Assembly: GCA_020444545.1 (NCBI GenBank)
Contig: JAHLKT010000002.1
Coordinates: 712,870 to 776,869 of the forward strand
DNA from: Desulfarculaceae bacterium
Lineage (GTDB): Bacteria > Desulfobacterota > Desulfarculia > Desulfarculales > Desulfarculaceae
DNA: 64,000 bases
Reading direction: 5' to 3'
Shown: positions 8,348 through 22,897 of the stretch, piece by piece
Position numbering within the stretch: position 1 is the stretch's first letter
Layout: each line of letters opens with the position of its first letter
Position numbers and translations under genes: made by a program
Notes under the pieces: generated by a model
Seen by the model: the letters and a program-made list of their open reading frames with translations, nothing else
The model's database searches: none
What the model was told of the DNA's origin: nothing

Positions 8348-9228
8348 GCGGCCAGCAAACGTCCGGGGGGTGGGGATGCCTGCCAGTCCAGGCGGCGGGT
8401 GCGGTCCAAGAGCAGGGCGTCCCCCTGCACCATCACCACGCAACCGGCGATAAGCTCGCGGCCGTGTAAGGCCTGGGCGCGCACCCGCGCCCCTTGTAGG
8501 GCTTGGGACCGTTGCGCCTCGCTTAGCCGCTCCACCCCAGTGGTTATGGCCTGCTCTCCCAAGCCGCACTCAGGATCGAGAGTAGAAGCGGGCGAGGTCC
8601 GAGCCGCGTCCTGGGCCAGGGCCGCGTTGCCCAGGGCGGTGGCAGCCGCATCGGCCAGGGCCGCGCTGGAGGCCCAGGCGGTGGCCAGGTCGGCAACGCC
8701 CGATGACAGGCTGCGCCCCTGCCACCCGCTGGTGGCCACGCCGCCCACGCCGTCCGAGGCGCTCAGGCGCAAACGGCCCAGCAATGATACGGGCTCCCCG
8801 TCATCAGCCGAAGTAGGCCGCAGGCCCACGCTGAGGCTCTGGCCCGGCCCCAGGCGCAGGGCCACGTCGCCGCCGTTGTTGACCACCACCTTGTCCGCGC
8901 CCAGGGCCAAGGCCGCATCGGCCACTTGGTCGGCCACCGCGCCGGCCACGGCGGCCAGAGGGGTCAGGTTCTGGTCCACCGCGCGGCAAGCATCCACCGC
9001 GCGGGCCACCACCTCGGGCAGGGGCCGTCCCTCGGGCAGGTCGCGCACCCGGCGGCGCATGTAGTCTTGAAAATCGGAAAGCACGGCCAGACAGCGCAGG
9101 GCCACCCGGGCCGCCTGGGCGGCCATCACCGGGCGGGGCTCGCCGCTGGCCCACGCGGATATGCTCAGGGTCATGGGGCCCCAGTCCACCAGGACCAGGT
9201 CGGGCCGGATTATTTGGACCGGTTCCAA
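8344..9228 (-). CDS. UPF0280 family protein (ApbE-related)
   Basis: About 294 residues. The core 'GPMTLSISAWASG', 'AAVAGAVADQVADAAL' and 'VVNNGGDVALRL' match the UPF0280 family, which is related to the FAD:protein FMN transferase ApbE. The open frame extends further upstream inside the reductase gene. I chose the TTG at 9228, behind 'aagga' and overlapping the reductase stop by 19 nt, because the upstream part does not look like protein; an internal start is possible. It is the last gene of the operon, directly after hnr. Because the E. barkeri Hnr carries covalent flavin, this protein is a candidate flavin-attachment factor; that is inference. Its stop overlaps the MocA-YqeC stop. Confidence 0.75.
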   Translation of the reverse strand: MEPVQIIRPDLVLVDWGPMTLSISAWASGEPRPVMAAQAARVALRCLAVLSDFQDYMRRRVRDLPEGRPLPEVVARAVDACRAVDQNLTPLAAVAGAVADQVADAALALGADKVVVNNGGDVALRLGPGQSLSVGLRPTSADDGEPVSLLGRLRLSASDGVGGVATSGWQGRSLSSGVADLATAWASSAALADAAATALGNAALAQDAARTSPASTLDPECGLGEQAITTGVERLSEAQRSQALQGARVRAQALHGRELIAGCVVMVQGDALLLDRTRRLDWQASPPPGRLLAA

Positions 9229-10733
9229 GGCACGGGTTCCTTGGCGTCGAATGGCTTGACCGCCTGCATGTGGCCGCCCATGGCCTCGTAGTCGCTCAGG
9301 CGCATGGTGTACTCCACCGGGGCCACCGTGGCCGGGGTGGGCACCCAAGTGAAGGCCCCGGGCATGACCCGTTCCACGTCCACGTAGAAGGTTATGCCCC
9401 CGCCGGGCAAGACGAACACCGGCGCGCCGCCGCAGGTGAGCACCGCCTGGGACGCGTGCACCGCCCGGGTCAGGCGCAATGGGTAGCGGGTGACGCCCGC
9501 GCGGGCCGAGCCGCCCGCCCCGCCCACGTACACCGCCGAAACGCGGCTCTCCTGGCAGGTCTCGGCGATTGCCGCCACCGCCGCGCTCGCCGCCTCGCTA
9601 AGCTCCATGGGCTGATACACCCCGTCGTCGCCCAGCACGAACATGGCCGCGTTCTGGCCGGTGGTCTCGGTGATGAGCAGGGTGGAGCCTGGCGCGGTTT
9701 TGCTGGTGTCCACCTTGGCCACTATGTCCAGGGGGTCTTCCAGGTCCGTGCCGCCCCAGCCCTTGCCGTGGGTGCCGAAGTAGCGCCCCGGAGTGGAGCG
9801 CGGGAAGCAGAGGTCCACCCCGCCGGGGGTGAGCCCCAGGCAGCGCCCGGCCGCGTGGTGGGTGAAAAGGCTGGTGATGTGGGCGTCCAGCACGATGACC
9901 TCGTCGGCCGCGTCCTTGAAGAAGGGCGCGAAGAGCCCGGCGCTGGCCGATCCGCAGCCAACCCGCATCTTCTCCACCCGCGCGCCGTCGATCACCGGCG
10001 GCGAGCCCACCTGCACCTCCAGCTTGGCCCCGCCCTTCACCTTGAGCTTTAGCGCCTCGCGGTTGGCTAAGGCCACCACCGCGCGGGCGGCCGCAAAGCC
10101 GTTCTTGCCGGTGAGCCGGTTGACCCCGCCGATGGCCAGCATCTTGGAGCCGTATTCCTCTGTCTCCACCATGCCCACGGTGCGGCCCTCGAACTTCACC
10201 TCCGCGCCCTCGGGCCCCACCTCAAGGTCGGTGTCGATCTTCAGCTTGAGTCCCGAGTAGGACAAGGGCACCTCGGTGACCACGGTCACCACCTCCACGC
10301 CCTCGCGCTGGTGGCTCATGATGTAGGGCGCGGGCACGTAGTCGGGATAGGTGCCCCCCGCGCCTATGGCGGTGATGGTGGGGCGCTCCAGGATGGCCTC
10401 CGGCTCCGGGCCGATGAGGTCGATGACCTCGGCCAGGGTGACCAGGGGGCGGGTGCGTTTCAGCTCGCCGTCCGCATAGGCGTAGCGGCCGCAGGCCCCG
10501 GTGAGGCCGGGAGCGATGGTGCAGCCCACGGGGCAGTGGTCGCAGACCAGCGCGCCGGGCGCGGCGGTCACCTCGTCGATCACCGCGCCCTGGGGGCAGA
10601 CCTTGAGGCAGGTGCGGCACTCCACGCAGGCGTCGTTGATGGCGGCTTTCTTGTCCACCAGGGCCACGGCGGCCACGGGGCAGTCGCGCACGCAGGTGCC
10701 GCAGCCGTTGCAGATTTCCCTATCGATCTTCAT
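9210..10733 (-). CDS. hnr: 6-hydroxynicotinate reductase-like Fe-S flavoprotein
   Basis: This 507-residue protein begins with two ferredoxin-type [4Fe-4S] motifs (C8/11/14/18 and C36/39/42/46). A third Cys group (C64, C67, C71, C81) could hold a [2Fe-2S] cluster. This is exactly the cluster inventory reported for E. barkeri 6-hydroxynicotinate reductase (two [4Fe-4S], one [2Fe-2S], covalent flavin). That enzyme reduces 6-hydroxynicotinate to 1,4,5,6-tetrahydro-6-oxonicotinate with ferredoxin. No classical SGAT flavinylation motif is visible; 'GAGGT' (124-128) is the nearest. The gene overlaps the molybdenum subunit by 14 nt and is followed by the UPF0280 gene. The family call comes from memory of the architecture and from context with enamidase, not from an alignment. 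Confidence 0.75.
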   Translation of the reverse strand: MKIDREICNGCGTCVRDCPVAAVALVDKKAAINDACVECRTCLKVCPQGAVIDEVTAAPGALVCDHCPVGCTIAPGLTGACGRYAYADGELKRTRPLVTLAEVIDLIGPEPEAILERPTITAIGAGGTYPDYVPAPYIMSHQREGVEVVTVVTEVPLSYSGLKLKIDTDLEVGPEGAEVKFEGRTVGMVETEEYGSKMLAIGGVNRLTGKNGFAAARAVVALANREALKLKVKGGAKLEVQVGSPPVIDGARVEKMRVGCGSASAGLFAPFFKDAADEVIVLDAHITSLFTHHAAGRCLGLTPGGVDLCFPRSTPGRYFGTHGKGWGGTDLEDPLDIVAKVDTSKTAPGSTLLITETTGQNAAMFVLGDDGVYQPMELSEAASAAVAAIAETCQESRVSAVYVGGAGGSARAGVTRYPLRLTRAVHASQAVLTCGGAPVFVLPGGGITFYVDVERVMPGAFTWVPTPATVAPVEYTMRLSDYEAMGGHMQAVKPFDAKEPVPWNRSK

Positions 10734-12966
10734 GATGCTTACCTCGGCTGCTCAGGGCCTCCATGACCCGCTCCAGGGACAGGGGCAGATGGTGCAGTGG
10801 GGTGCCCACCGCCTGGCTAACCGCCGAGGCCACCGCCGGGGCGGTGGGTATCAAGGCGGGCTCGCCCACCCCCTTGGCCCCGAAAGGCCCGGTAGGCTCG
10901 GGCTCCTCCACGATCAGCGGAGTGATGGCCGGGGCGTCTGCCGCGGTGGGGATGTGGTACTGCTGCAAGTTGCCTTCGCGGCCGGGGTGGTGCTCCTCCA
11001 TGAGGGCCATGCCCACGCCCATGACCACGCCGCCGCAGATCTGGCCCAGCACCGCGCGGGGGTTGATGGCCCGCCCCACGTCATGGGCCGCGGCCACTTC
11101 CTTGACCCGCACCATGCCGCTGGCTGGGTCCACCGCCACCTTGGCGCATTGGGCCGCGTAGGCGTAGGCCGCATAGGGGCGGCCCTGGCCGGTCTCCGGG
11201 TCCAGGGGGGTGAAGTTGGGGTCAAAGGCGCCCTCCCCCCGCGCCGCGCGGCCCAAATGGCGGGCCACCTCGGCGGGCTCCACGCTGCGTCCGTCGGCGG
11301 CCTGGAGCAGGCCGTCCTTTAGCTCAATCTCTAAATGGCGCTCGCCCAGCATCTCGCGGGCGCCCTCCACCAGGCTCATGACCAGGTTGTCGGCCGCGGC
11401 CAGGGCCGCGTTTCCCGAGATGTAGGTCTGGCGGCTGGCCGAGGTGGCTCCCGCGTTGGTGGTGCGCTTGGTGTCGCCCCGGCAGACCTTGACCCGGGCC
11501 GCGTCCAGGCCCAGGCGGCCGGCCGCGATCTGCTTGAGCGCCGTGTCGCTGCCTTGGCCGATGTCCGCCGCGCCGGTGAAGAGGGTAACGGTGTTGTCCG
11601 CGCCCCATTCCATCTGGGCGGTGGAAGGATTGGACACGCCGGTGTTGCCGATGCCGTAGAACATGGCTCCCAGGCCCACGCCGCCCAGGCCGTCACTATC
11701 GGCCAGCTCCTCGCGCCAGGCCTTGTAGATGGGCTCGATGCGCTCCAGGCAGGCCACCAGCCCCACCCCGGCATTGAGCTTCTGGCCGGTGCAGGTGCGC
11801 ATCCCCGCGCGCAGAGCGTTGATCTTGCGCATCTCCAACGGGTCAATCCCCAACTTGGCGGCCAGGGCGTCCATCTGGCCCTCGTGGGCCAGAGCCACCT
11901 GGGGGCAGCCGAAGCCGCGCATGGCGCCGTAGAAGCCGTTGTTGGTGTAGGCCATGCGGCAGGCCACGTCCACGTTGGGCACGTTGTAGGGACCGGTGGC
12001 GTGCACCGCCGCGCGCATGCACACGGCCAGGCCGTAAGAGGCAAAGGCTCCGGTGTCGCCCAGGATGCGCGCCTTGAGCGCGGTGAGGCGGCCCTGCTCG
12101 TCGGCTCCGGTGATGTAGTGCATTTGCAAGGGGTGGCGCTTGGCCGTGGCCAGGAAGGACTCCTCGCGGGTGAAGCGCATGCACACCGAGCGCACCAGAT
12201 GCCAGGCGGCCAGGGCCAAGAAAGGCTGCACCGAGAGGTCCAGCTTGCCGCCGAAGCCGCCGCCAGTCTCGGCCTGGATCACCCGTATCTTTTCCTCGGG
12301 CACGCCCAAAAAGCGGGCCAGGTCGGCCTGGTCGTAATGCGGGTTCTGGGTGCAGGCCTCGACCACCAGCTGGCCGTCCTGCCACCAGGCGCGGCCGCCC
12401 TCCACCTCCAGGGCGGCGTGCTCCAGTGGGCTGGTGGAATACACCGCCTCCACGGTAACCGCGCTGGCGGCCAGAGCCGCGTCCACGTCGCCCCGCTTGA
12501 TCAAGTTTTCCCGGAGCAGGTTGCCGCCGGGATGATCAGGATGCACCAGGGGCGCGCCGGGGGCCAGGGCCTCTTCGGGGTCAAAGACGCCGGGCAGCTT
12601 GGCCAGCTCCACCCGCACCGCGCGGGCCCCGGCCAGGGCCTGGGCGCGGGTGCTGGCCGCCACCAGGGCCACGGCCTGGCCCTTCTGGCGCACCGTGTCC
12701 ACGGCCAGAAACTCCTGGTCCCGGCTTACCGCGATGATGCCCAGGTCGTGCTGGCCGGGCACGTCGGCCGCGGTGAACACCCGCACCACCCCGGGCATGG
12801 CCAGGGCGGCGGCGGGGTCGATGTTCACGATGCGAGCCGGAGCCGCCTCCGCCCGCACGCAGGCCAGGTGCAGATCCTCGGATCGGCCCTGGTCCCAACC
12901 GAAACGGGTCTCCCCGCGCACCCGGGCGTAGACCCCGCTATGAGCCATGCTCTGCCCCACGCTCAT
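10720..12966 (-). CDS. Molybdenum hydroxylase, large molybdopterin-binding subunit (nicotinate dehydrogenase-like)
   Basis: This 748-residue catalytic subunit belongs to the xanthine dehydrogenase family. Visible motifs are 'TGGGFGGKLDLSVQPFLA', 'NNGFYGAMRGFGCPQVALA', 'FTGAADIGQGSDTALKQIA' and the C-terminal 'GAKGVGEPALIPTAPAVASA', whose Glu (about 702) is the family's catalytic base. Such enzymes hydroxylate N-heterocycles with water as oxygen donor. The start is the ATG at 12966, which overlaps the FAD-subunit stop as ATGA; upstream in-frame sequence is not protein-like. In E. barkeri nicotinate dehydrogenase this subunit is split into NdhL and NdhM; here it is one chain. Neighbouring hnr, enamidase and YqeC point to nicotinate or a similar N-heterocycle and to possible selenium dependence. 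Confidence 0.88.
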   Translation of the reverse strand: MSVGQSMAHSGVYARVRGETRFGWDQGRSEDLHLACVRAEAAPARIVNIDPAAALAMPGVVRVFTAADVPGQHDLGIIAVSRDQEFLAVDTVRQKGQAVALVAASTRAQALAGARAVRVELAKLPGVFDPEEALAPGAPLVHPDHPGGNLLRENLIKRGDVDAALAASAVTVEAVYSTSPLEHAALEVEGGRAWWQDGQLVVEACTQNPHYDQADLARFLGVPEEKIRVIQAETGGGFGGKLDLSVQPFLALAAWHLVRSVCMRFTREESFLATAKRHPLQMHYITGADEQGRLTALKARILGDTGAFASYGLAVCMRAAVHATGPYNVPNVDVACRMAYTNNGFYGAMRGFGCPQVALAHEGQMDALAAKLGIDPLEMRKINALRAGMRTCTGQKLNAGVGLVACLERIEPIYKAWREELADSDGLGGVGLGAMFYGIGNTGVSNPSTAQMEWGADNTVTLFTGAADIGQGSDTALKQIAAGRLGLDAARVKVCRGDTKRTTNAGATSASRQTYISGNAALAAADNLVMSLVEGAREMLGERHLEIELKDGLLQAADGRSVEPAEVARHLGRAARGEGAFDPNFTPLDPETGQGRPYAAYAYAAQCAKVAVDPASGMVRVKEVAAAHDVGRAINPRAVLGQICGGVVMGVGMALMEEHHPGREGNLQQYHIPTAADAPAITPLIVEEPEPTGPFGAKGVGEPALIPTAPAVASAVSQAVGTPLHHLPLSLERVMEALSSRGKHHEDR

Positions 12967-13823
12967 GACGCGGCCTCCAGACCGGACCAGGCCATGGACA
13001 GCGCCTGGGCGGTGCAGCGGGTGATGGCCGGGACCTTGTAGTCGGCCGAAGAACGCCAACCGCACACGTCGGTGAAGTGGCTGGCCGCGATCTCGCCGGC
13101 GTGTTGCCACAAATCCGGTCCCGGCTGGCCGGCGTGCAAAAGATTCTCCACGTCGATCATGCGGTGGGGGCTGGGGAAGCAGGAGCCCAGCACCACACGG
13201 GGGTCTTCCAGGCTGCGGTCCAGGGCCACGGCCAGGTTGAGCCGGGCCACGGCCACCTCGTGACGGCGCCCCACCTTTAGGAAGGCCTGGCCGTCCGGGT
13301 CGGGCGGCAGGGCCAGGCGGAAGCCCAGGATGATCTCGTCCTCGGCCAGGGTGGTCTGGTTGGGCGCGGTGATCAGCTCGTGCAAGGGGCAGAAGCGCTG
13401 TCCCCGGGGAGAGGCGATCTCCGCGCTGGCCTCCAGGGCGGTCAGGGCAGTTAGCCCGTCGGCCGCGGGCGAGGCGTTGGCCACGTTGCCGCCGATGGTG
13501 GCCGTACTGCGCACCTGCACCGAGCCCACCGAGGCGGCGGCCCTGGCCAGCAGGGGCAGGCGCCGGGCCACGGCCGGGTTGCTCTCCAAAAAGCGAAAGG
13601 TGAGGCCCGCGCCAAGATAGGGCTCGTCGCCGTCCAGGCGGATGCGTTGCAGCTCGGGCAAACGGGTGAGGTCCACCAGAGTGGCGGGCAGGTCTCCGCC
13701 TTGCAGGCGGGCCTTGCGCAGGGCCACCATCAGGTCGGTGCCCCCGGCCAGAGACTTGGCGTCACCCCGGCTCAGCGCTTCCAGGGCCTCGTCCAGCGAG
13801 GCGGGCTGGACAAAGCGGCTCAT
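12963..13823 (-). CDS. Molybdenum hydroxylase, FAD-binding subunit
   Basis: This 286-residue medium subunit belongs to the xanthine dehydrogenase/CO dehydrogenase family. The FAD-binding motifs 'SLAGGTDLMVALR' (about 31-43) and 'RSTATIGGNVANASPAADG' (about 110-128) are intact, and a CO-dehydrogenase flavoprotein C-terminal domain follows. Its ATG at 13823 overlaps the stop of the 2Fe-2S subunit (ATGA), and its own stop overlaps the start of the large subunit in the same way. This shows tight translational coupling of the three subunits. It passes electrons from the Fe-S subunit to an acceptor, NAD(P)+ or ferredoxin. Confidence 0.92.
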   Translation of the reverse strand: MSRFVQPASLDEALEALSRGDAKSLAGGTDLMVALRKARLQGGDLPATLVDLTRLPELQRIRLDGDEPYLGAGLTFRFLESNPAVARRLPLLARAAASVGSVQVRSTATIGGNVANASPAADGLTALTALEASAEIASPRGQRFCPLHELITAPNQTTLAEDEIILGFRLALPPDPDGQAFLKVGRRHEVAVARLNLAVALDRSLEDPRVVLGSCFPSPHRMIDVENLLHAGQPGPDLWQHAGEIAASHFTDVCGWRSSADYKVPAITRCTAQALSMAWSGLEAAS

Positions 13824-14302
13824 GATTCGCCGCCCTCCCCCCGCATGTGCTTGGCCCCCCGGCGCACCGCGCGCACGATGTCGTGGTACCCGGTGCAGCG
13901 GCACAGGTTGCCCGACAGGGCGCGGCGAATCTCGGGGTCGGCGGGGTCGGGGTTGTGGCTTACCAAATCAAGGGAAGAGAGGATCATGCCGGGGGTGCAA
14001 AAGCCGCACTGCACCGCGCCGGTCTCCACGAAGGCCTCCTGCATGGGGTGCAGCTCGCCGCCCCGGGCCAGGCCCTCCACCGTGGTGATCTCGCGTCCGG
14101 CGGCCTGCCGGGCGGCGGTTAGGCAGGAGTTGACCGCCTCGCCGTCGATGAGCACGGTGCAGGCTCCGCACTCGCCCACCCCGCAGCCCTCCTTGACGCC
14201 CAGCATCTCCAGGCGCTCGCGCAGGACCTCCAAAAGGGTGGCTTCGCCGGGGACATCCTCCAGGCTTACCGGGGAACCGTTGAGAGTGAACTCGAGGGGC
14301 AT
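13820..14302 (-). CDS. Molybdenum hydroxylase, 2x[2Fe-2S] subunit
   Basis: This 160-residue small subunit carries both cluster motifs of the family: plant-ferredoxin-like C40-x4-C45-x2-C48-x11-C60 ('GCGVGECGACTV') and the helical C99-x2-C102 ... C134-x1-C136 ('CGFCTPGM', 'GNLCRCTGYH'). Length and spacing are typical. It is the first enzyme gene after the TRAP genes in the operon and carries electrons from the molybdenum site to the FAD subunit. Confidence 0.95.
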   Translation of the reverse strand: MPLEFTLNGSPVSLEDVPGEATLLEVLRERLEMLGVKEGCGVGECGACTVLIDGEAVNSCLTAARQAAGREITTVEGLARGGELHPMQEAFVETGAVQCGFCTPGMILSSLDLVSHNPDPADPEIRRALSGNLCRCTGYHDIVRAVRRGAKHMRGEGGES

Positions 14303-14315
14303 AGCCAGATTCCCG

Positions 14316-15626
14316 TCACCGGTTCATCATGCCCGGCAAAAGAGTGGCAATGCCGGGGATGACCGTGATCAAGAAGGCCACGAAGAAAATGGCCAACAGG
14401 AAGGGCGCGACACCCTTGAAAATCGTTTCCAGCTTGGTGCTGGGGTCCACGCCCGCCACGGTGAAGATGTTCAACCCCATGGGCGGCGTTATGAGCCCCG
14501 CCTCCATCATCAGCACCGCGATGACCCCGAACCAGATGGGGTCGAAATGCAGGGCGGTGATGATGGGGTAGATCACCGGCAGGGTGAGCACCATCATGGA
14601 GATGGCGTCCAGGAAGCAGCCCAGGAAAAGGTAGATCAGGATGATCACCGTGTGGATCAGGTAGGGCGAGACCTCCAGGCCGGTGGCCCAGGTGGCCACC
14701 TGGGTGGGGATGGTGGACAGGGCCAGGAAATAGGAGAACACGTTGGCGCCCGCCACCAAAAACAGCACCATCACCGAGATGCGCACCGACTCGAACAGGG
14801 CGCTGATCAGCACCTGCCAGCTAAGGCGTCTTTTCACCAGGGCCACCAGGAACAGCACCGTGGCGCCCACCGCGCCGGCCTCGGTGGGGGTGAAAAAGCC
14901 CGCGTAGATGCCGCCCATGACGATGAAGAACAGGGCCAGCGGCTCCCACACGCCCCTGAGGGAAGCGAACTTGTCGGCCCAGCTAACCCGCTCCGGGCTG
15001 GCCGGGGCGGCCGCGGGGATCAACTTCACCCAGGCGACCACTATGCCCACGTAGGCGAAGGCGAGCAAAAACCCCGGCATGATGCCCGCCACCAGGAGCT
15101 TGCCGATGGACTGCTCGGTGAGCATTCCATAGACCACGAAACCGATGCTGGGCGGAATGAGAAAGCCCAGGGTGCCGCCCGCGGCCACCGCGCCGGTGGC
15201 CAGGCTGGCGCGGTAGTTGAAGCGCTTCATTTCCGGCAGGGCCACGGTGCCCATGGTGGCCGCGGTGGCCACCGAGGAGCCCGACACCGCCGCGAAACCG
15301 CCGCAGGCGCCGATGGTGGCGATGGCCAGGCCGCCGGGCAAGCGGCGCATCCATTTGTCGAAGGTGCCGTAAAGCTCGCTGGTGATGCCCGAGCTGGAGG
15401 CGAAGCCGCCCATGACGATGAACAAGGGGATCACCGTGTAGGGATAGAAGGAGGCCACCTCCCACACCGTGCTGGCCAGCTTGGGCAGCGCGGCGTCCAT
15501 GGAAGCCAGGTAGCTGATGCCGGAGAAGCCTACCAGCATCAGGGCGAAGGCGATGGGCATACCTAGGAACAGGAGGACGAATACGGCGATGGTGCCGAGA
15601 ACTCCTACGGTGATGGGATCCAACAT
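14316..15626 (-). CDS. dctM: TRAP transporter large permease subunit DctM
   Basis: This 436-residue integral membrane protein has about 12 hydrophobic segments. Typical DctM motifs are 'FLGMPIAFALMLVGF' at the N-terminus, 'ATGAVAAGGTLGFLIPPSI', 'FFTPTEAGAVGA' and 'MEAGLITPPMGLNIF'. It catalyses ion-coupled uptake of an organic anion. Its ATG overlaps the dctQ stop by one base (TAATG). The molybdenum hydroxylase genes start 14 nt downstream, so substrate import and first oxidation are probably on one transcript. Nicotinate would fit, but the substrate is inferred from context alone. Confidence 0.93.
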   Translation of the reverse strand: MLDPITVGVLGTIAVFVLLFLGMPIAFALMLVGFSGISYLASMDAALPKLASTVWEVASFYPYTVIPLFIVMGGFASSSGITSELYGTFDKWMRRLPGGLAIATIGACGGFAAVSGSSVATAATMGTVALPEMKRFNYRASLATGAVAAGGTLGFLIPPSIGFVVYGMLTEQSIGKLLVAGIMPGFLLAFAYVGIVVAWVKLIPAAAPASPERVSWADKFASLRGVWEPLALFFIVMGGIYAGFFTPTEAGAVGATVLFLVALVKRRLSWQVLISALFESVRISVMVLFLVAGANVFSYFLALSTIPTQVATWATGLEVSPYLIHTVIILIYLFLGCFLDAISMMVLTLPVIYPIITALHFDPIWFGVIAVLMMEAGLITPPMGLNIFTVAGVDPSTKLETIFKGVAPFLLAIFFVAFLITVIPGIATLLPGMMNR

Positions 15627-16114
15627 TAGTTACCTGCCAACTCGCGCACGGTGTCCACCAGATCGAAGATCAGCTCCAGGCAGAGGAAGAGCGCTCCCAC
15701 GGCCACCAGCATCCGGAAGGGAGCCTGGGGCACGCGCAGCATGTCCGAGACGGACACCTCTTCCATGGCCACCGCGTAGCCTTGCCAACAGAGCATGGCG
15801 ATGATGAAGATGCTCAGGAGATTGGTTAATAGGTCGAGGCTCAGGGAGACCTTTTTGGGCAGGCGGTCGGTGAACATGGTCACCCGCACGTGGCCCTTTG
15901 CCTGTTGGGTGTAGGCCAGACCCAACAGGATGAACACCGAGAGCATGTAGGAGGACATTTCCAGGGTGCCGGGGATGGGCCGGGACCAAACGCCCCGGCC
16001 CACCACCTCGGCAGCCGTCCATAACATCATGGGGATGAGCAGGAACATGCCCACATAGGTCAACCCGCGAGTTACCTTTTGAATGAAGGCCTTGGTTTTT
16101 TCGTACGCTTCCAT
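15626..16114 (-). CDS. dctQ: TRAP transporter small permease subunit DctQ
   Basis: This 162-residue protein has four transmembrane helices and the family segments 'VGRGVWSRPIPGTLEMSSYML' (broken here as VGRGVW and PIPGTLEMSSYM) and 'KGHVRVTMFTDRLP'. It forms the membrane complex with DctM. It lies between dctP and dctM in the usual order, with a 38-nt gap to dctP and a one-base overlap with dctM. Confidence 0.92.
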   Translation of the reverse strand: MEAYEKTKAFIQKVTRGLTYVGMFLLIPMMLWTAAEVVGRGVWSRPIPGTLEMSSYMLSVFILLGLAYTQQAKGHVRVTMFTDRLPKKVSLSLDLLTNLLSIFIIAMLCWQGYAVAMEEVSVSDMLRVPQAPFRMLVAVGALFLCLELIFDLVDTVRELAGN

Positions 16115-16152: not shown

Positions 16153-17226
16153 TTACTTCTTCTTCTCGGTATTCCACTCGGGCGGGAAGGCCACGCAAGT
16201 GGAACCGGCCTGCTGGACCGCCTGGTTGTACATCATCACCGCTTCCTTGGCGGGCTTGCCTTGCTTCTCCAGCTCGGCCACCCACTGGCGGGTAACCTCC
16301 TGGAAGCGGGCGAACCAACGCTGCTCCTCCTTGGGAGGCAGGTCGTAGACCTTCACGCCCTTGGCCTTGATCTCCTTCATCATCTTGGCATAGGTCTTTT
16401 TGTCCAGACCGTGGGTGTGGGCGAAGGGGTTGCCCACCACCTCCATGATGATGGCCTGCAGGTCCTTGGGAGTGCGCTTCCAGGACTTCTCGTTCATGAT
16501 CACGCCCTCGGACACGCAGCCGAAGGTCGCCTTGACGCCGTACTTGGCCACTTCATAGAGCTTGAAGGCCAGCACCAGCGGAGGACAGGTGACCAGACCG
16601 TCGATGGTGCCGGTCTCCATGGCCAGGTACACGTCGCCCAGGGGCATGAACACGGGCTGGGCGCCCAGGGACTTGATGTAGTTGGTCTGCATGCCGCCGG
16701 GGGTGCGGATCTTGAGGCCCTTCAGGTCCTCCAGGGTGTGCACCGGCTTGGTGGTCCACAGGAAGGCCTGGATGCAGCCGTTGAGTTCCAGCACCTTGAC
16801 GCCCTTGAACTCCTTCTCCAGGGCCTTCTTGTAAACCTGGTTGCCGATGTCGGTGGCCAGGTCCTTGCCGTCGACCCAGGCGGCCATGGAGAGCACGTCG
16901 GTCATGGGGAAGCGGCCGGGGGTCCAGGTGGCGGTGAAGTAGCCCATGTCCGACAGGCCGTTTTTCACGATGTCGAAGTGCTCGGGGCCCTTGCCCAGGG
17001 CGCCGCCGGCATAGAGGGTGTAGGTGATGCGGCCGTCGCTGCGCTTCTTGAGCTCCTCCAGCATGGGAATCCACACCGTCTTGACCTCGCGGCTCATGGG
17101 CGGATGCCAGGTGGAGAATTTCAGGTGAATGCTTTTCTTCTCATCGGCCGCCTTGGCGTTGGTTACGCCGGCGAAGCAAATAAGCAACGCCGCCATAAAG
17201 CTGAGCAGCCACGCAAATTTTTTCAT
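16153..17226 (-). CDS. dctP: TRAP transporter periplasmic solute-binding protein DctP
   Basis: This 357-residue exported protein has a Sec signal (MKKFAWLL...CFAGVTNAKA, cleavage near residue 27). The mature part shows the DctP fold motifs 'LKGLKIRTPGGMQTNYIKSL', with the conserved Arg that binds the ligand carboxylate, and 'GDVYLAMETGTIDGLVTC'. Carboxylate recognition by that Arg suits nicotinate, but the ligand is not decided by sequence. An excellent ribosome site (ggaggg) precedes the ATG. The gene is first in the catabolic operon and its promoter carries a palindromic operator. Confidence 0.93.
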   Translation of the reverse strand: MKKFAWLLSFMAALLICFAGVTNAKAADEKKSIHLKFSTWHPPMSREVKTVWIPMLEELKKRSDGRITYTLYAGGALGKGPEHFDIVKNGLSDMGYFTATWTPGRFPMTDVLSMAAWVDGKDLATDIGNQVYKKALEKEFKGVKVLELNGCIQAFLWTTKPVHTLEDLKGLKIRTPGGMQTNYIKSLGAQPVFMPLGDVYLAMETGTIDGLVTCPPLVLAFKLYEVAKYGVKATFGCVSEGVIMNEKSWKRTPKDLQAIIMEVVGNPFAHTHGLDKKTYAKMMKEIKAKGVKVYDLPPKEEQRWFARFQEVTRQWVAELEKQGKPAKEAVMMYNQAVQQAGSTCVAFPPEWNTEKKK

Positions 17227-17427
17227 GAATCGAGCCCTCCTTCAGTGAGTTTCATTGGTGACGCGCCTAATCCCGCGCCCCGTGAGGCGCGCGCCGGGAG
17301 GCGCGAAAAAATAGCCAACCGGAAGCTATTCAGTTTATTCTCCACCCCTCGATACATCCTGGCGTCTACTCCCTAGTGTATTCGCCAAAGGCTTGCGCCC
17401 AGGTGTAAATTAATATTTACTTTATTG

Positions 17428-17444
17428 TTTAAATATAATTTAAA
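17428..17444. promoter_or_regulatory. 17-bp palindromic operator over the dctP promoter
   Basis: A perfect palindrome, minus-strand TTTAAAT-TAT-ATTTAAA, covers the -10 box of the dctP promoter. A copy with one change (A to G at position 5) sits at 18944-18960 in front of the XRE-cupin regulator. Shared sites at both transcription units make this the likely binding site of that regulator; the position over -10 suggests repression. Confidence 0.65.
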
Positions 17445-17459
17445 TTGGTTTCCCGTCAA
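17432..17459 (-). promoter_or_regulatory. Sigma70-type promoter of the TRAP/hydroxylase operon
   Basis: On the minus strand, TTGACG (17459-17454) and TATATT (17437-17432) are 16 nt apart in an AT-rich stretch about 200 nt upstream of dctP. The rest of 17227-17519 holds no gene. The long AT-poor leader from here to dctP has no riboswitch that I can recognise. Confidence 0.6.
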
Positions 17460-17519
17460 GTTTTTTGAATTCATTCCTAATATTGACCTATATAAACCAG
17501 GCATTAAGGCGTCCCTACC

Positions 17520-18746
17520 CTAACGGTCCTTCCAGGCCGGCATGGGGTACAAGGGCTTCTTTTCAGCCCAATCCTCTGGATAGACGTTGACGATCCGCCC
17601 CTTTTGCACCTGCATGGCAACCGGCGGTCGTTTTTGGATGGCTCCGTCGGCATCAAAGCGCACCGGACCGTAGAAGGTAGTCAGCTCCATGCGGTGCAGC
17701 TTTTCGGCCAGCCTGATGCGGGCGGCGGGCCCAAAACCGGGCCTCAGCCCCAGGGCTTCCACCGCCTTTTGCTGGGCCACCGCCGCGGCCACGCTAGCCG
17801 CCTCCACGGAGCCGGGCGCTCGACCCAGGCGCTTTTGGAAGGTGTCGTTGAACTCCCGGGCGCTGCCGAACACCGATCCCACAAAAGGCAGGTTGGGCGC
17901 CCATTCGCCGGCCGTGAACACATAGTCGGCCTTGGCCCTGAGCCCCTGCCTAAAGGCGGGCGACAGGGGGCCGTCGCTGAAAGCCACCGCCTTGGGGTTG
18001 AAGTCGATGGCCTGCATGGCCTCGACCATCCTGACGGCCACTTCCAGGCGGGAGCCCACCAACAAAAGATCGGGCCGCTTGGCCTTGGCCTTTAGCAGGA
18101 TGGTGTCGTAGTCCTTGAGCTGCACCGGGAACAGCTCATAGTGGATGATCTTGAAACCGCTCTTTTCGGCGTATTTCTTAAAGCCCTGGCAGGCCAGTTT
18201 AGCAAAAGGCAGGTTGGAGCCCAGAATGGCCACGGTCTTGGGCTTGGGGCTAACGGTGGTGAATACCTCCACCGCGCCGCGCACCGCCTCGGTGGCCTTG
18301 CCCAGGGTGCCGAAGAAATATTTGTAATGCCGCTGATAGAGCCGATCGGCCGAGGCGCCGCCCGAGAGATAAGGGACCTTGTGGCGCTCGGCCACGGCGG
18401 CGGCGGCCATGACCTGGGCCGAGCCGTAGGAGCCCAGCAGCAGGTCCACCTTGTCCTGGGTGATCAGCCGCTCCACCAGCATGGCGCTGACCTTGGGGCT
18501 GGACTGGTCGTCGCGGAAAACCAGCCTGACGGGATTTTGTCCGGCGATGCCGCCGTTGTCGTTGACTTTCTCGGCCCAGAGGCCGTAGGACTCTTTAAGG
18601 AGCTGGCCGACCTTGCCGAACTGGCCGGTCAGGGGAACGGTGCAGCCGATGACGAACGCCCTGGCTGCCAGGCAGGTGGTTTGAGCACCCAGGCCGAGCA
18701 CCAGGGACAAAGCAATCAAGACGATTCCGGCCCGTCTCAGAATCAT
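17520..18746 (-). CDS. ABC-type branched-chain amino-acid-like substrate-binding protein, orphan
   Basis: This 408-residue protein has a Sec signal (cleavage near residue 28) and the type 1 periplasmic-binding fold of LivK/amide-binding proteins. It starts 'IGCTVPLTGQFGKVGQLLKE', followed by 'VRLVFRDDQSSPKVS' and 'LLLGSYGSAQVMAAAAVAE'. No ABC permease or ATPase gene is nearby. It lies divergent to the XRE-cupin regulator and between the two catabolic units, so it may be a spare binding protein or sensor for the pathway substrate, or may use a permease encoded elsewhere. Confidence 0.85.
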   Translation of the reverse strand: MILRRAGIVLIALSLVLGLGAQTTCLAARAFVIGCTVPLTGQFGKVGQLLKESYGLWAEKVNDNGGIAGQNPVRLVFRDDQSSPKVSAMLVERLITQDKVDLLLGSYGSAQVMAAAAVAERHKVPYLSGGASADRLYQRHYKYFFGTLGKATEAVRGAVEVFTTVSPKPKTVAILGSNLPFAKLACQGFKKYAEKSGFKIIHYELFPVQLKDYDTILLKAKAKRPDLLLVGSRLEVAVRMVEAMQAIDFNPKAVAFSDGPLSPAFRQGLRAKADYVFTAGEWAPNLPFVGSVFGSAREFNDTFQKRLGRAPGSVEAASVAAAVAQQKAVEALGLRPGFGPAARIRLAEKLHRMELTTFYGPVRFDADGAIQKRPPVAMQVQKGRIVNVYPEDWAEKKPLYPMPAWKDR

Positions 18747-18910
18747 GAGTTCACACCTTGGCTGCGGTTGATGAAGAGCGGTGCGGGCCCCGGCGCTTTC
18801 GCTTGGTGCGCGCGCCGCGCCTTATCAGTATATTTTAGCCAGGCCGAGGCCCATCTTGGGCTCATTTCTTGCCGGCCGGCCATTCCGCTAATTCCTCACT
18901 CTCTTTACTC

Positions 18911-18939
18911 TTGACCTGCCCACATTTAAGCGATATTTT
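18911..18939 (+). promoter_or_regulatory. Sigma70-type promoter of the regulator-enamidase operon
   Basis: TTGACC (18911-18916), 17-nt spacer, TATTTT (18934-18939). The start site expected about 7 nt downstream falls in the palindromic operator at 18944-18960. It would drive the regulator, enamidase, PF06684 and aldehyde dehydrogenase genes. Confidence 0.6.
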
Positions 18940-18943
18940 ATTT

Positions 18944-18960
18944 TTTAGATTATATTTAAA
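18944..18960. promoter_or_regulatory. Second copy of the 17-bp palindromic operator
   Basis: TTTAGATTATATTTAAA, 16 of 17 bases identical to the dctP operator at 17428-17444. An overlapping dyad AGATT...AATCT (18947-18963) extends it. It sits at the predicted start site of the regulator's own operon, as expected for autoregulation. Confidence 0.65.
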
Positions 18961-19009
18961 TCTCGGCACGCGTCAAGCTGTTTCGCCGGATTTGGGAGAA
19001 GAGGGGCTC

Positions 19010-19555
19010 TTGGAAAGTTTGGGGAGTAAAATAAAGCAGATGCGTCTAGCCCAAAAGCTGACGCTGAAGCAGGTGGCCGACAAGGCCGACTGCACTGCTT
19101 CGTATTTATCTCAGGTGGAGCACGACAAGGCTTCGCCCTCCATCGCCTCGCTGAAACGCATCGCCGGGGTGCTGGGGGCGCGCATCGTGGATTTTTTCGC
19201 CGACGAATCCGAGCACGACCCGGTGGTGATGGACCCTTCCCAATGGGTGCGGGTTAGCCTGCCCCGCTGGAAGGCGGACATCAAGCAGATGGTGGCCATG
19301 GTCAAACATCGCCACATGCAGCCCTTCTTCACCGTCATTCAACCCGGGGGCGGCACCCGGGAGGATTATCACCACGTGGGCGAGGAATTCGGCCTGGTGC
19401 TGGAGGGTGAGCTCACCCTGCGCCTGGGCGAGGAGATACACCTGGTGCCCGCTGGTTCGTCTTTTTATTACTCATCCAGCCAGCCCCACGCCTGGACCAA
19501 CGAGGGCGACGAGCCCTGCCGGGTGGTTTGGGTGGTGACCCCGCCCAGCTGGTAG
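19010..19555 (+). CDS. XRE-family transcriptional regulator with C-terminal cupin sensor
   Basis: A 181-residue regulator. Residues 4-60 are a Cro/CI-type helix-turn-helix ('LTLKQVADKADCTASYLSQ', 'SPSIASLKRIAGVLG'). Residues 105-180 are a cupin ('HHVGEEFGLVLEGELTLRLG', 'VPAGSSFYYSSSQPHAWTN') that should bind the effector. I chose the TTG at 19010 behind 'ggagaagagggg', because the domain starts there and the operator and promoter lie upstream; the open frame reaches 18869 but would run through them. It heads the enamidase operon and likely binds the palindromes at 18944 and 17428. Confidence 0.88.
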   Translation: MESLGSKIKQMRLAQKLTLKQVADKADCTASYLSQVEHDKASPSIASLKRIAGVLGARIVDFFADESEHDPVVMDPSQWVRVSLPRWKADIKQMVAMVKHRHMQPFFTVIQPGGGTREDYHHVGEEFGLVLEGELTLRLGEEIHLVPAGSSFYYSSSQPHAWTNEGDEPCRVVWVVTPPSW

Positions 19556-19586: not shown

Positions 19587-20744
19587 ATGAGCAGCGTATT
19601 GATCAAAAACGTGGGCCTGATGCTCAGTGGCCTGGTGGACGAACCCATCCTGGCGGCGGACAGCGTTCTCATCGCCGACGGCCTCATCCAGAAAATCGGC
19701 TCCGGCCTGGAAGCCCCCGAGGGCGCCACGGTCATCGACGCGGGCGGCTCGGCCCTAACACCGGGCCTCATCGATAGTCACTGCCACGTGGTCCTGGGCG
19801 ACTGGACCCCGCGCCAGCAGATGCAAAACTTCCTGGACTCCTCGCTGCACGGCGGGGTGACCACCTCCATCAGCGCGGGCGAGGTGCACCTGCCCGGCCG
19901 CCCCAAGGACCCCCTGGGAACCAAGTGCCTGGCCATCCTGGCCGCCAAGAGCTGGGGCACGGTGCGCCCCGGCGGCATGAAGGTACTGGGCGGCTCGCTA
20001 ATCCTGGAAAAGGGCCTCACCGAGGCTGATATCGAAGAATGCTACCAGGCGGGCGTGCGGGTCGTCGGCGAGGTCGGCTTGGGCTCGGTCAAGGAGCCGC
20101 CCGAGGCACCGGAGATGGTTCAGTGGGCCAAGAAGCGCGGCATGACCGTGATGATGCACACCGGCGGCACCTCCATCCCCGGCTCGTCCGTGGTGGGCGC
20201 CGAGCAGATCATCGCGGTAAAGCCCTCGGTGGCCAGCCACATCAACGGCGGCCCCACCGCGGTCAGCCTGGAAGGGGCCAAGGCCATCATCGATGAGAGC
20301 GACGCGGCTATCGAGATCGTGCAGTGCGGCAACATGCGCCGCGCCGCCGAGGTGGCCCAGTACATCGACGATACCAAGCAGTGGGGCCGGGTGATCTTCG
20401 GCAACGACGCCCCCTCCGGCACCGGCGTGGTCACCCTGGGCATCCTTCGCAACATGGCCCTGGTGGCCAGCCTGGGCGGCGTGGCCCCCGAGCTGACCGT
20501 GGCCATGGCCTCGGGCAACACCGCCGCGCTCTACGGCCTCAACCGGGGCGTCATCGCCGAGGGCCGCGAAGCGGACCTGGTGCTCATGGACACCCCCATA
20601 GGCTCGCCGGGCAAGGACGTCCTGGAGGCCCTGGCCGAGGGCGACACCCCCGGCGTTTCCCTCATCCTGATCGACGGCAAGGTTGTGGTCACCAAGAGCC
20701 GCAACACCCCGCCGCCGGTGCGCGCCGCCAAGGTGGCCGCTTAG
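19587..20744 (+). CDS. ena: Enamidase-like amidohydrolase (ring-opening)
   Basis: This 385-residue amidohydrolase-superfamily enzyme closely follows the E. barkeri enamidase that I recall: 'LTPGLIDSHCHVVLGDW' (metal ligands H65, H67), 'LHGGVTTSISAGEVHLPGRP', 'GEVGLGSVKEPPEAPEM', 'HTGGTSIPGSSVV', 'SHINGGPTAVS', 'FGNDAPSGTG' and the C-terminal 'VVTKSRNTPPPVRAAK'. The known enzyme hydrolyses 1,4,5,6-tetrahydro-6-oxonicotinate to ammonia and (S)-2-formylglutarate with an Fe-Zn centre. The start ATG has ggaggg upstream and lies 31 nt after the regulator. Together with hnr and the molybdenum hydroxylase it gives the first three steps of anaerobic nicotinate breakdown. Confidence 0.88.
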   Translation: MSSVLIKNVGLMLSGLVDEPILAADSVLIADGLIQKIGSGLEAPEGATVIDAGGSALTPGLIDSHCHVVLGDWTPRQQMQNFLDSSLHGGVTTSISAGEVHLPGRPKDPLGTKCLAILAAKSWGTVRPGGMKVLGGSLILEKGLTEADIEECYQAGVRVVGEVGLGSVKEPPEAPEMVQWAKKRGMTVMMHTGGTSIPGSSVVGAEQIIAVKPSVASHINGGPTAVSLEGAKAIIDESDAAIEIVQCGNMRRAAEVAQYIDDTKQWGRVIFGNDAPSGTGVVTLGILRNMALVASLGGVAPELTVAMASGNTAALYGLNRGVIAEGREADLVLMDTPIGSPGKDVLEALAEGDTPGVSLILIDGKVVVTKSRNTPPPVRAAKVAA

Positions 20745-20773
20745 CATCAATTTGTCCTTTGGAGGATTTAGCC

Positions 20774-21352
20774 ATGCAGATTCGTAAGCTGGTCACCATC
20801 GTGGAAGAGACCCTGAACGAGGCGGGCAAGGCCATCGAGCCCCCCACCCGCAAAGCCGCGGCCATCGCGGTCATCGCCAATCCCTTTGCCGGCGGCTACA
20901 CCGAGGACCTGAGCGAGCTGATGGACATCGGCGAGGAGCTGGGTGGGATGCTGGGCGACAAGGCCCGCGACGCTCTGGGCATCGCCCCCGAGGAGTGCGA
21001 GAGCTACGGCAAGGCGGCCATCGTGGGCCTGAACGGCGAGCTGGAGCACGGCGGCGCCATCCTGCACCCCAAGCTGGGCGCCCCCTTCCGCAAGGCCCTG
21101 GGCCGGGGCCTGGCCCTGATCCCCTCGGTGAAAAAACGCGGCCCGGCCGGCTGCACCATCGACGTTCCCCTGAACCACAAGGACGCGGCCTTCATCCGCT
21201 CCCACTTCGACGGCATGACCATCAGCCTGGAAGATGCGCCCATGGCCGACGAGATCCTGGTGGCCCTGGTGGTCACCGATTCCGGACGTCCCCTGCCCCG
21301 CATCGGCGGCCTGACCAAGGAAGACGCCAAGTACGAGGACGGCCTTCGTTAA
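20774..21352 (+). CDS. PF06684 ('amino acid synthesis', DUF1185) family protein
   Basis: A 192-residue cytoplasmic protein ('MQIRKLVTIVEETLNEAGK', 'IAVIANPFAGGYTEDLSELMDIGEEL' split here as IAVIANPFAG and YTEDLSELMDIGEE, 'CTIDVPLNHKDAAFIRSH'). It matches a family whose name says nothing reliable about function. The ATG at 20774 has a ggagg site 8 nt upstream; the longer open frame is an artefact of enamidase coding sequence. It sits between enamidase and the aldehyde dehydrogenase, so it likely acts on the ring-opened product, its tautomer or the released amide/ammonia. I cannot assign a reaction. No counterpart is known to me in the E. barkeri nicotinate cluster. Confidence 0.75.
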   Translation: MQIRKLVTIVEETLNEAGKAIEPPTRKAAAIAVIANPFAGGYTEDLSELMDIGEELGGMLGDKARDALGIAPEECESYGKAAIVGLNGELEHGGAILHPKLGAPFRKALGRGLALIPSVKKRGPAGCTIDVPLNHKDAAFIRSHFDGMTISLEDAPMADEILVALVVTDSGRPLPRIGGLTKEDAKYEDGLR

Positions 21353-21406: not shown

Positions 21407-22897
21407 ATGGCCATGTTGCCTGAAGTCAAGAAGCACTACGGACGCCTGAAGCTGCTTATCGGCGGCGAGTGGGTGGAGTCCAAGTCCGATATCATCAACG
21501 AGACCACCAACCCGGCCACCGGCGAGGTGATCGCCGAGTTCCCCACCGCCACCCAGGAAGAAGCCCGCGCGGCGGTGCAGGCCGCGGCCGACGCCTTCGA
21601 TACCCTGAAGAACATCCCCCTGCGCGAGCGCGCCCGGATGCTCTTTGACATGCGCCAGATCTACGACCGCGAGGCCGACACCCTGAGCCGCGTGCTGAGC
21701 CAGGACCACGGCCGCACCTACAAGGAGGCCGCCGGTTCGGTGCGCCGTTGCATCGAGAACATCGAGTCCGCCTGCGCGGCGGCCTACGGCCTGGTCTCGC
21801 GCAACGAGCACCTGGACAACCTGGCCAACGGCATCGACATGTGGCTGACCTGGGAGCCGTTGGGGCCCTTCCTCATCGTGACTCCGGGCAACATCCCCAT
21901 GCACGCCTGGAGCTCCTTTGTGCCCTACGCCCTGGCCTCCGGCTGCCCGGTGGTGGTGAGCCCCTCGCGCCAGGACCCGGTGGCCGCGGAATACATGAGC
22001 AAGGTGGCCCTGGAGGCCGGTTTCCCGGCAGGCGCCATCAACCTGATCCACGGCGGCCGCGACGTTAACTCCTTCATCCTGGAGCAGCCGGAGATCGAGG
22101 GCATCGGCTTTATCGGCTCCACCAGCGCCGGTCTGGACCTGTTTGCCCAATGCGGCAAGCTGGGCAAGACTTCGAGCCTCAACGGCAACGGCAAGAACAC
22201 CGTGTTGATCATGCCCGACGCCGACCTGGACGCCTGCCCCGGCTACGTGCGCCAGGGCTGCTTCGGCATGACCGGCCAGCGCTGCCTGGGCTCGGACAAC
22301 GTGGTGATCATCGGCGACCAGAAGCGCTACGACGAGGTGAAGCAGGCCCTGGTGGCCAACGCCTCGGCCATGAAGCTGGGCTACGGCCTGGACGAGAGCG
22401 TGACCATGGGCCCCTACGCCACCCCCGGCGGCCGCGACAAGGTCATCGCCTGGGTCGAGAAGGGCCTGGGCGAGGGCGCCAAGATGGTCCTGGACGGCCG
22501 CACCATGCTGCCCGCCGACTATCCCGACGGCTATTTCATGGGCCCCACCCTCTTGGAAGACGCCGACATTGACATGGAAATCTGCAAGGAAGAAGCCTTC
22601 GGCGCGGTGGCGGCCCTCATCCGGGCTGAGAGCCTGGAGCAGGTCATCGGCTGGATCAACTCCAAGACCGACCTGGGCCACAGCGCCTGCATCATGACCG
22701 CCAGCGGAGTGAACGCGCGCAAGTTCGCCCGTGAGGTCAACGTGGGCAACGTGGGCATCAACGTGGGCGTGCCCCAGCCCTACGCCTTCTTCCCCCTGGG
22801 CTCCAAGCGCAAGTCCTTCCTGGGCGCCGCCAAGAGCCGCATGGCCTCCATGCGTCTGTTCCTGGATGAGCGCACCGTGACCGCGCGCTGGGTTTAA
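21407..22897 (+). CDS. CoA-acylating aldehyde dehydrogenase, methylmalonate-semialdehyde dehydrogenase type
   Basis: A 496-residue aldehyde dehydrogenase closest in pattern to MmsA: catalytic C293 in 'FGMTGQRCLGSDN', C-terminal 'NVGINVGVPQPYAFFPLGS'. The 'ELGGK' segment of hydrolytic family members reads 'SLNGNGKN', so the usual general-base Glu is missing, as in CoA-acylating members. MmsA-type enzymes turn a 2-formyl acid into an acyl-CoA with loss of CO2. Applied to 2-formylglutarate this would give glutaryl-CoA, CO2 and NADH. It is the last gene of the enamidase operon and a strong terminator follows. Confidence 0.82.
   Translation: MAMLPEVKKHYGRLKLLIGGEWVESKSDIINETTNPATGEVIAEFPTATQEEARAAVQAAADAFDTLKNIPLRERARMLFDMRQIYDREADTLSRVLSQDHGRTYKEAAGSVRRCIENIESACAAAYGLVSRNEHLDNLANGIDMWLTWEPLGPFLIVTPGNIPMHAWSSFVPYALASGCPVVVSPSRQDPVAAEYMSKVALEAGFPAGAINLIHGGRDVNSFILEQPEIEGIGFIGSTSAGLDLFAQCGKLGKTSSLNGNGKNTVLIMPDADLDACPGYVRQGCFGMTGQRCLGSDNVVIIGDQKRYDEVKQALVANASAMKLGYGLDESVTMGPYATPGGRDKVIAWVEKGLGEGAKMVLDGRTMLPADYPDGYFMGPTLLEDADIDMEICKEEAFGAVAALIRAESLEQVIGWINSKTDLGHSACIMTASGVNARKFAREVNVGNVGINVGVPQPYAFFPLGSKRKSFLGAAKSRMASMRLFLDERTVTARWV

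Follow-up and report, generated by a model that had tools for sequence, protein, structure and literature searches.

XRE-cupin proteins of Pseudomonas aeruginosa, such as ErfA, PsdR, PauR, PA0535, PA1359, PA1884, and PA4987, are local repressors that act on core promoters beside their own genes (PMC7901475). The motifs for PsdR and PauR are palindromic, like that of ErfA, and PsdR controls the genes for a substrate-binding protein and a peptidase by way of a pair of sites around its gene (PMC7901475). A further point of reference is the nicotinate catabolism of Eubacterium barkeri (Alhapel et al., 2006, as outlined in PMC9304392). We analyzed a window of 64,000 nucleotides from a Desulfarculaceae bacterium (GCA_020444545.1, contig JAHLKT010000002.1, positions 712,870 to 776,869), in which the gene for a protein with the same domain architecture as the above Pseudomonas repressors adjoins a cluster that shares with the E. 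barkeri one an enamidase homologous to 2VUN, a molybdenum hydroxylase, and a candidate ferredoxin-domain reductase.

The regulator and its gene neighborhood

The genes concerned, with their positions in the window, are:

9210-16114, minus strand: rest of the dctP unit, namely dctQ, dctM, molybdenum hydroxylase subunits, and the ferredoxin-domain reductase candidate
16153-17226, minus strand: dctP, first gene of the predicted target unit dctPQM-xdhC-xdhB-xdhA-reductase (conserved order)
17520-18746, minus strand: periplasmic substrate-binding protein (Peripla_BP_6 domain match), probable third target
19010-19555, plus strand: XRE-cupin regulator (HTH_3 and Cupin_2; TTG start), proposed repressor
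19587-20744, plus strand: enamidase, regulator operon (match to 2VUN, E 2.7e-141, 473.9 bits)
20747-21352, plus strand: AA_synth family protein (PF06684; domain match, conserved order), regulator operon
21407-22897, plus strand: aldehyde dehydrogenase (PF00171), methylmalonate-semialdehyde-dehydrogenase-like (TIGR01722, 343.8 bits, below the cut-off of 448.5)

The regulator combines an HTH_3 domain (45.6 bits, cut-off 23) with a Cupin_2 domain (67.5 bits, cut-off 27.2), i.e., the XRE-cupin architecture, and, as is typical of that family, its gene adjoins transport and catabolic genes and the predicted operators lie in core promoters beside it. The small number of sites is likewise shared with the Pseudomonas repressors, and the resemblance extends to PsdR in the presence of two sites around the regulator gene and a substrate-binding-protein gene as a predicted target. 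The window differs from these systems in its TTAA-type half-site, three-box element, and face-to-face promoters, and in its nicotinate-type cluster and Desulfarculaceae-like lineage. Over the full length of the regulator the closest curated family model is the NCBIfam model for PuuR (NF007408); the score of 99.8 bits falls below the model cut-off of 211, and hence the protein is not PuuR. In Escherichia coli PuuR is the putrescine repressor, whereas the neighbors in the window are not putrescine genes.

A perfect palindrome, GTTCAATATATTGAAC (G000:C3:465686-465701; 1455-1470 in L044), stands before the gene of the nearest XRE-cupin paralogue that the genome of the window encodes (G000:C3:465732, 44% identity). 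Exact copies of this palindrome occur once each in three genomes (G000, G047, and G049), always just before the paralogue; G045 and G050 lack it, and no such paralogue was found in those two genomes either. Related regulators in these genomes thus have distinct sites of their own beside their own genes.

The assignment of the enamidase is firm, with the full-length match to 2VUN covering residues 1-383 of 385, and it thereby supports a nicotinate-type pathway. The family models for the molybdenum hydroxylase subunits and the ferredoxin-domain protein that are also present do not resolve substrates, and the pathway substrate would be of the nicotinate type. Unlike the E. barkeri cluster, that of the window has an AA_synth protein and an aldehyde dehydrogenase after the enamidase, and a TRAP transporter. 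The best family match of the aldehyde dehydrogenase is the CoA-acylating methylmalonate-semialdehyde type, albeit below the model cut-off, and by analogy the enzyme could convert 2-formylglutarate to glutaryl-CoA and CO2, an exit unlike that of E. barkeri. The gene for the binding protein is the divergent neighbor of the regulator also in L047, L052, L058, and L062. The binding protein of the window is 62% identical to its L047 counterpart, as against ~85-94% for most neighboring proteins, and its gene is without the following Liv-type permease genes that L052 has; it may have been replaced or orphaned. The dctP leader (17227-17425, minus strand; ~200 nucleotides) holds a small hairpin (AATAGC..GCTATT) followed by T6, as well as a GC-rich hairpin; these are partly conserved in L047-L051, with two-sided changes in 4 of 31 consensus pairs. 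A search against Rfam returned no RNA family at the locus, including the leader, which possibly functions in attenuation.

Two matching sites, their promoters, and a three-box element

The predicted regulatory features are:

17428-17444, minus strand: predicted operator site 1, TTTAAATTATATTTAAA, covering the dctP -10 (matrix score 31.0, rank 1 in the window)
18944-18960, plus strand: predicted operator site 2, TTTAGATTATATTTAAA, between and over two face-to-face promoters (matrix score 24.7, rank 2)
17410-17444, plus strand: full three-box element at site 1, with TTAA boxes at 17410, 17429, and 17440 (recovered by pattern at G000:C2:730279-730312)
18926-18959, plus strand: full three-box element at site 2, with TTAA at 18926, TTAG at 18945, and TTAA at 18956 (box columns conserved in the alignment)
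17432-17459, minus strand: predicted dctP promoter, TTGACG-16-TATATT, 10/12 (same -35 and operator at similar spacing in L047-L051)
18911-18939, plus strand: predicted promoter of the regulator operon, TTGACC-17-TATTTT, 9/12 (CTTGAC[C/T] conserved in 13 aligned loci)
18949-18976, minus strand: predicted opposing promoter, facing the substrate-binding-protein gene, TTGACG-16-TATAAT, 11/12

An earlier note on this DNA had reported a shared 17-bp unit at the two catabolic promoters, and the sites are indeed found at these positions and on these strands, agreeing in 16 of 17 bases and lying ~1.5 kb apart. When the 93 AT-rich 17-mers that the window holds in 6 stretches were compared all against all, the two sites formed the best pair, with one difference, the best unrelated pair having three. 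With up to 3 mismatches the common pattern TTTARATTATATTTAAA matches the window 3 times at two places, versus 0 in 100 shuffles. The genome-wide scan that the note had called for finds just two exact copies in the 4.38-Mb genome, sites 1 and 2 themselves, both beside the regulator. The next-best genomic match has 2 mismatches (G000:C1:263177) and all others have 3; the former was rejected as a further copy, for the conserved portion of its region, as judged from the 93% relative G049, does not include it. As the count at 3 mismatches (7+3) is no higher than that of the reversed-pattern control (8+6), weight rests on the close matches only. A loose form of the 17-bp pattern was discarded as a marker in the AT-rich genomes of the class, where it gives dozens of matches, equal to controls.

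As had been claimed, the dctP -10 lies within site 1. Site 2 does lie over the predicted start of the regulator operon, just past its -10 (TATTTT, ending at 18939), but the note had passed over the opposing minus-strand promoter (18976 to 18949), the -10 of which site 2 also covers and which is the stronger of the two (11/12 versus 9/12). Site 2 is thus enclosed by a face-to-face pair of promoters, and together with the dctP promoter this places three units under predicted control. The -35 of the opposing promoter (GTCAAG) is present in all 13 aligned loci, which were, however, selected for carrying it. Part of the similarity between the sites is simply shared sigma70 promoter sequence.

The 17-bp unit, though genuinely shared, is too short a description, being two thirds of a longer element of three TTAA-type boxes with spacings of 19 and 11 bp, identical at both sites. 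To align this element independently of the operator, 13 regulator-side loci were anchored on the plus-strand -35, with loci kept if GTCAAG also occurred downstream. The resulting consensus is CTTGACC....c...tTTAA..GaTAgTtTAtTTtTTAAa.TatatTTAAa.....g....cgtcAAG, in which the TTAA-type boxes are conserved outside the sigma70 hexamers, both within the spacers and in the stretch from one -10 to the other, whereas the adjoining spacer positions are not. The three-box pattern with variable gaps is non-specific by itself (16 matches in G000, 18 for the control).

The symmetry of the unit, which the note had termed a palindrome, is weakly supported, with composition-shuffle p-values of ~0.05 and ~0.09 for the two window sites. 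When the columns of 13 orthologue sites were permuted, 795 of 5000 permutations were as symmetrical as the sites themselves, and no axis stands above the shuffles in the -35-anchored alignment (294/500). Since TTAA is its own reverse complement, the palindromy is statistically insecure, and direct and inverted arrangements of the boxes are indistinguishable. A dimer on a dyad would fit the XRE-cupin family, and by analogy we infer dimeric binding.

Conservation and specificity in related genomes

Orthologues of the regulator with 70-93% identity are found in eleven other genomes of the genus, family, and class, the closest being from a Desulfarculaceae MAG (L014). The order regulator-enamidase-AA_synth-aldehyde dehydrogenase, with dctPQM and the molybdenum hydroxylase genes running divergently from it, is kept across genera, with variation in the transporter genes. 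Most relatives have no binding-protein gene in between, so that a single intergenic region parts the two units: in L054, L056, and L057 this region is 229-312 bp long with a single element, and in L048-L051 it is 424-539 bp long with two elements, one near each unit. In the window and L047 the two elements flank the binding-protein gene, and in L052, where Liv-type ABC transporter genes replace the TRAP genes, two elements occur 78 bp apart beside the regulator. Six genomes of the genus (G000, G045, and G047-G050) keep an element near each unit, on account of which both sites appear to be under selection. Upstream of the regulator -35, L048-L051 also have in common a further conserved stretch (TTTCAATTTTGTTATGACCTGCCAT, with some variation) that is absent from the window.

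A matrix trained on orthologous sites, with neither the window nor L047 (the 93% relative) among them, was scanned over the window, where it ranks site 1 and site 2 at the top; further high scores come from positions overlapping the two elements, and away from these no score exceeds 11.7. Genome-wide checks relied on patterns, for which a composite, CTTGACN{10,13}TTWAN{7,8}YTAA, was run on 16 genomes. It is present at the regulator locus in 12 of the 12 genomes with a regulator of at least 70% identity, and 22 of its 27 matches in these 12 genomes fall there; a third match in G000 lies at C2:525465. The comparison genomes G042, G054, G057, and G059 have 3 matches between them, none at the regulator locus, and the reversed composite yields 3 across all 16 genomes. 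Because the pattern was written after inspection of the regulator loci, its presence at them is partly by construction, and the independent part of the result is its scarcity elsewhere. With more distant regulators (61-63% identical; L058-L061) the sites have drifted and match poorly, as in G054, which carries a 61% regulator.

Thus, with the sites conserved beside the same regulator gene in a dozen genomes, they are very likely binding sites of the cluster's own repressor. The earlier note took the paired sites as direct evidence for one regulon, which is too strong, for the evidence is comparative; its suggestion of a single regulon under the neighboring XRE-cupin protein is nonetheless the best explanation, given that each close relative tested has the element next to its regulator orthologue, that the element is nearly confined to that locus genome-wide, and that the 44% paralogue has a different palindrome.

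Alternative readings and the proposed switch

The conserved block could in principle consist of strong sigma70 promoters with AT-rich melting regions that resemble each other through their -35 and -10 hexamers, with no regulator-specific operator. The overlap of the sites with -10 hexamers fits this, as does a symmetry that does not clearly exceed column or composition shuffles; yet conserved TTAA boxes lying outside the hexamers, the identical pair of spacings at both sites, and the near absence of the composite elsewhere in the tested genomes speak against it, and we consider this explanation unlikely. It is very improbable that another DNA-binding protein, encoded elsewhere, uses the sites while the XRE-cupin protein acts on something else. 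That the sites are tied to the XRE-cupin protein by sequence comparison, and that the genome encodes an XRE-cupin paralogue, leaves some room for such a protein, but the element accompanies the regulator locus from genome to genome and has drifted where the regulator is more divergent, the nearest paralogue has a palindrome of its own, and the family acts locally (PMC7901475).

The two sites may also descend from one duplicated promoter, in which case their agreement is not fully independent evidence. The elements share their box spacing and a CTTGACG -35 at nearly equal distance, and the compact relatives L054, L056, and L057 have a single element, all of which would fit a duplication after which just one site kept a regulatory function. 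This alternative is a partial one, in that the regulator could still bind the other site, and the retention of an element near each unit in six genomes of the genus makes it quite improbable.

We therefore favor the reading in which sites 1 and 2 are operators of the XRE-cupin protein (19010-19555), with three promoters repressed and a pathway metabolite bringing release, and regard it as highly probable. We infer that this protein would be the binder, that it would act as a repressor, and that it would have such an effector. Without inducer, the protein would sit on the AT-rich boxes, occluding the dctP promoter at site 1, while its occupancy of site 2 would shut down the regulator-enamidase operon together with the opposing substrate-binding-protein gene, the promoters of which face each other across the operator. 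Sensing of a nicotinate-pathway compound by the cupin domain would then release the regulator and turn on uptake and breakdown together. In the biotin operon of E. coli a single operator lies between two overlapping, opposed promoters and serves to repress the pair; the likeness is one of layout only, as the regulator (BirA) and operator there are unrelated. A rather unlikely variant is that the regulator acts on the face-to-face promoters via the three-box element while these promoters also compete, setting a ratio of catabolism to uptake in place of joint switching, such that the separate sites in the genus would mark an evolutionary uncoupling of this competition.

In the open-licence papers searched we found none on an XRE-cupin regulator of a nicotinate-type cluster, and the locus is very likely a hitherto undescribed instance of a switch of known type, namely local XRE-cupin repression. 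For an anaerobic nicotinate-type catabolic cluster it provides a concrete predicted operator and regulon that can be tested. Among the related loci, some have one operator for a pair of opposed promoters and others have separate copies, and this variety offers a natural series for the study of how such regulons reorganize.
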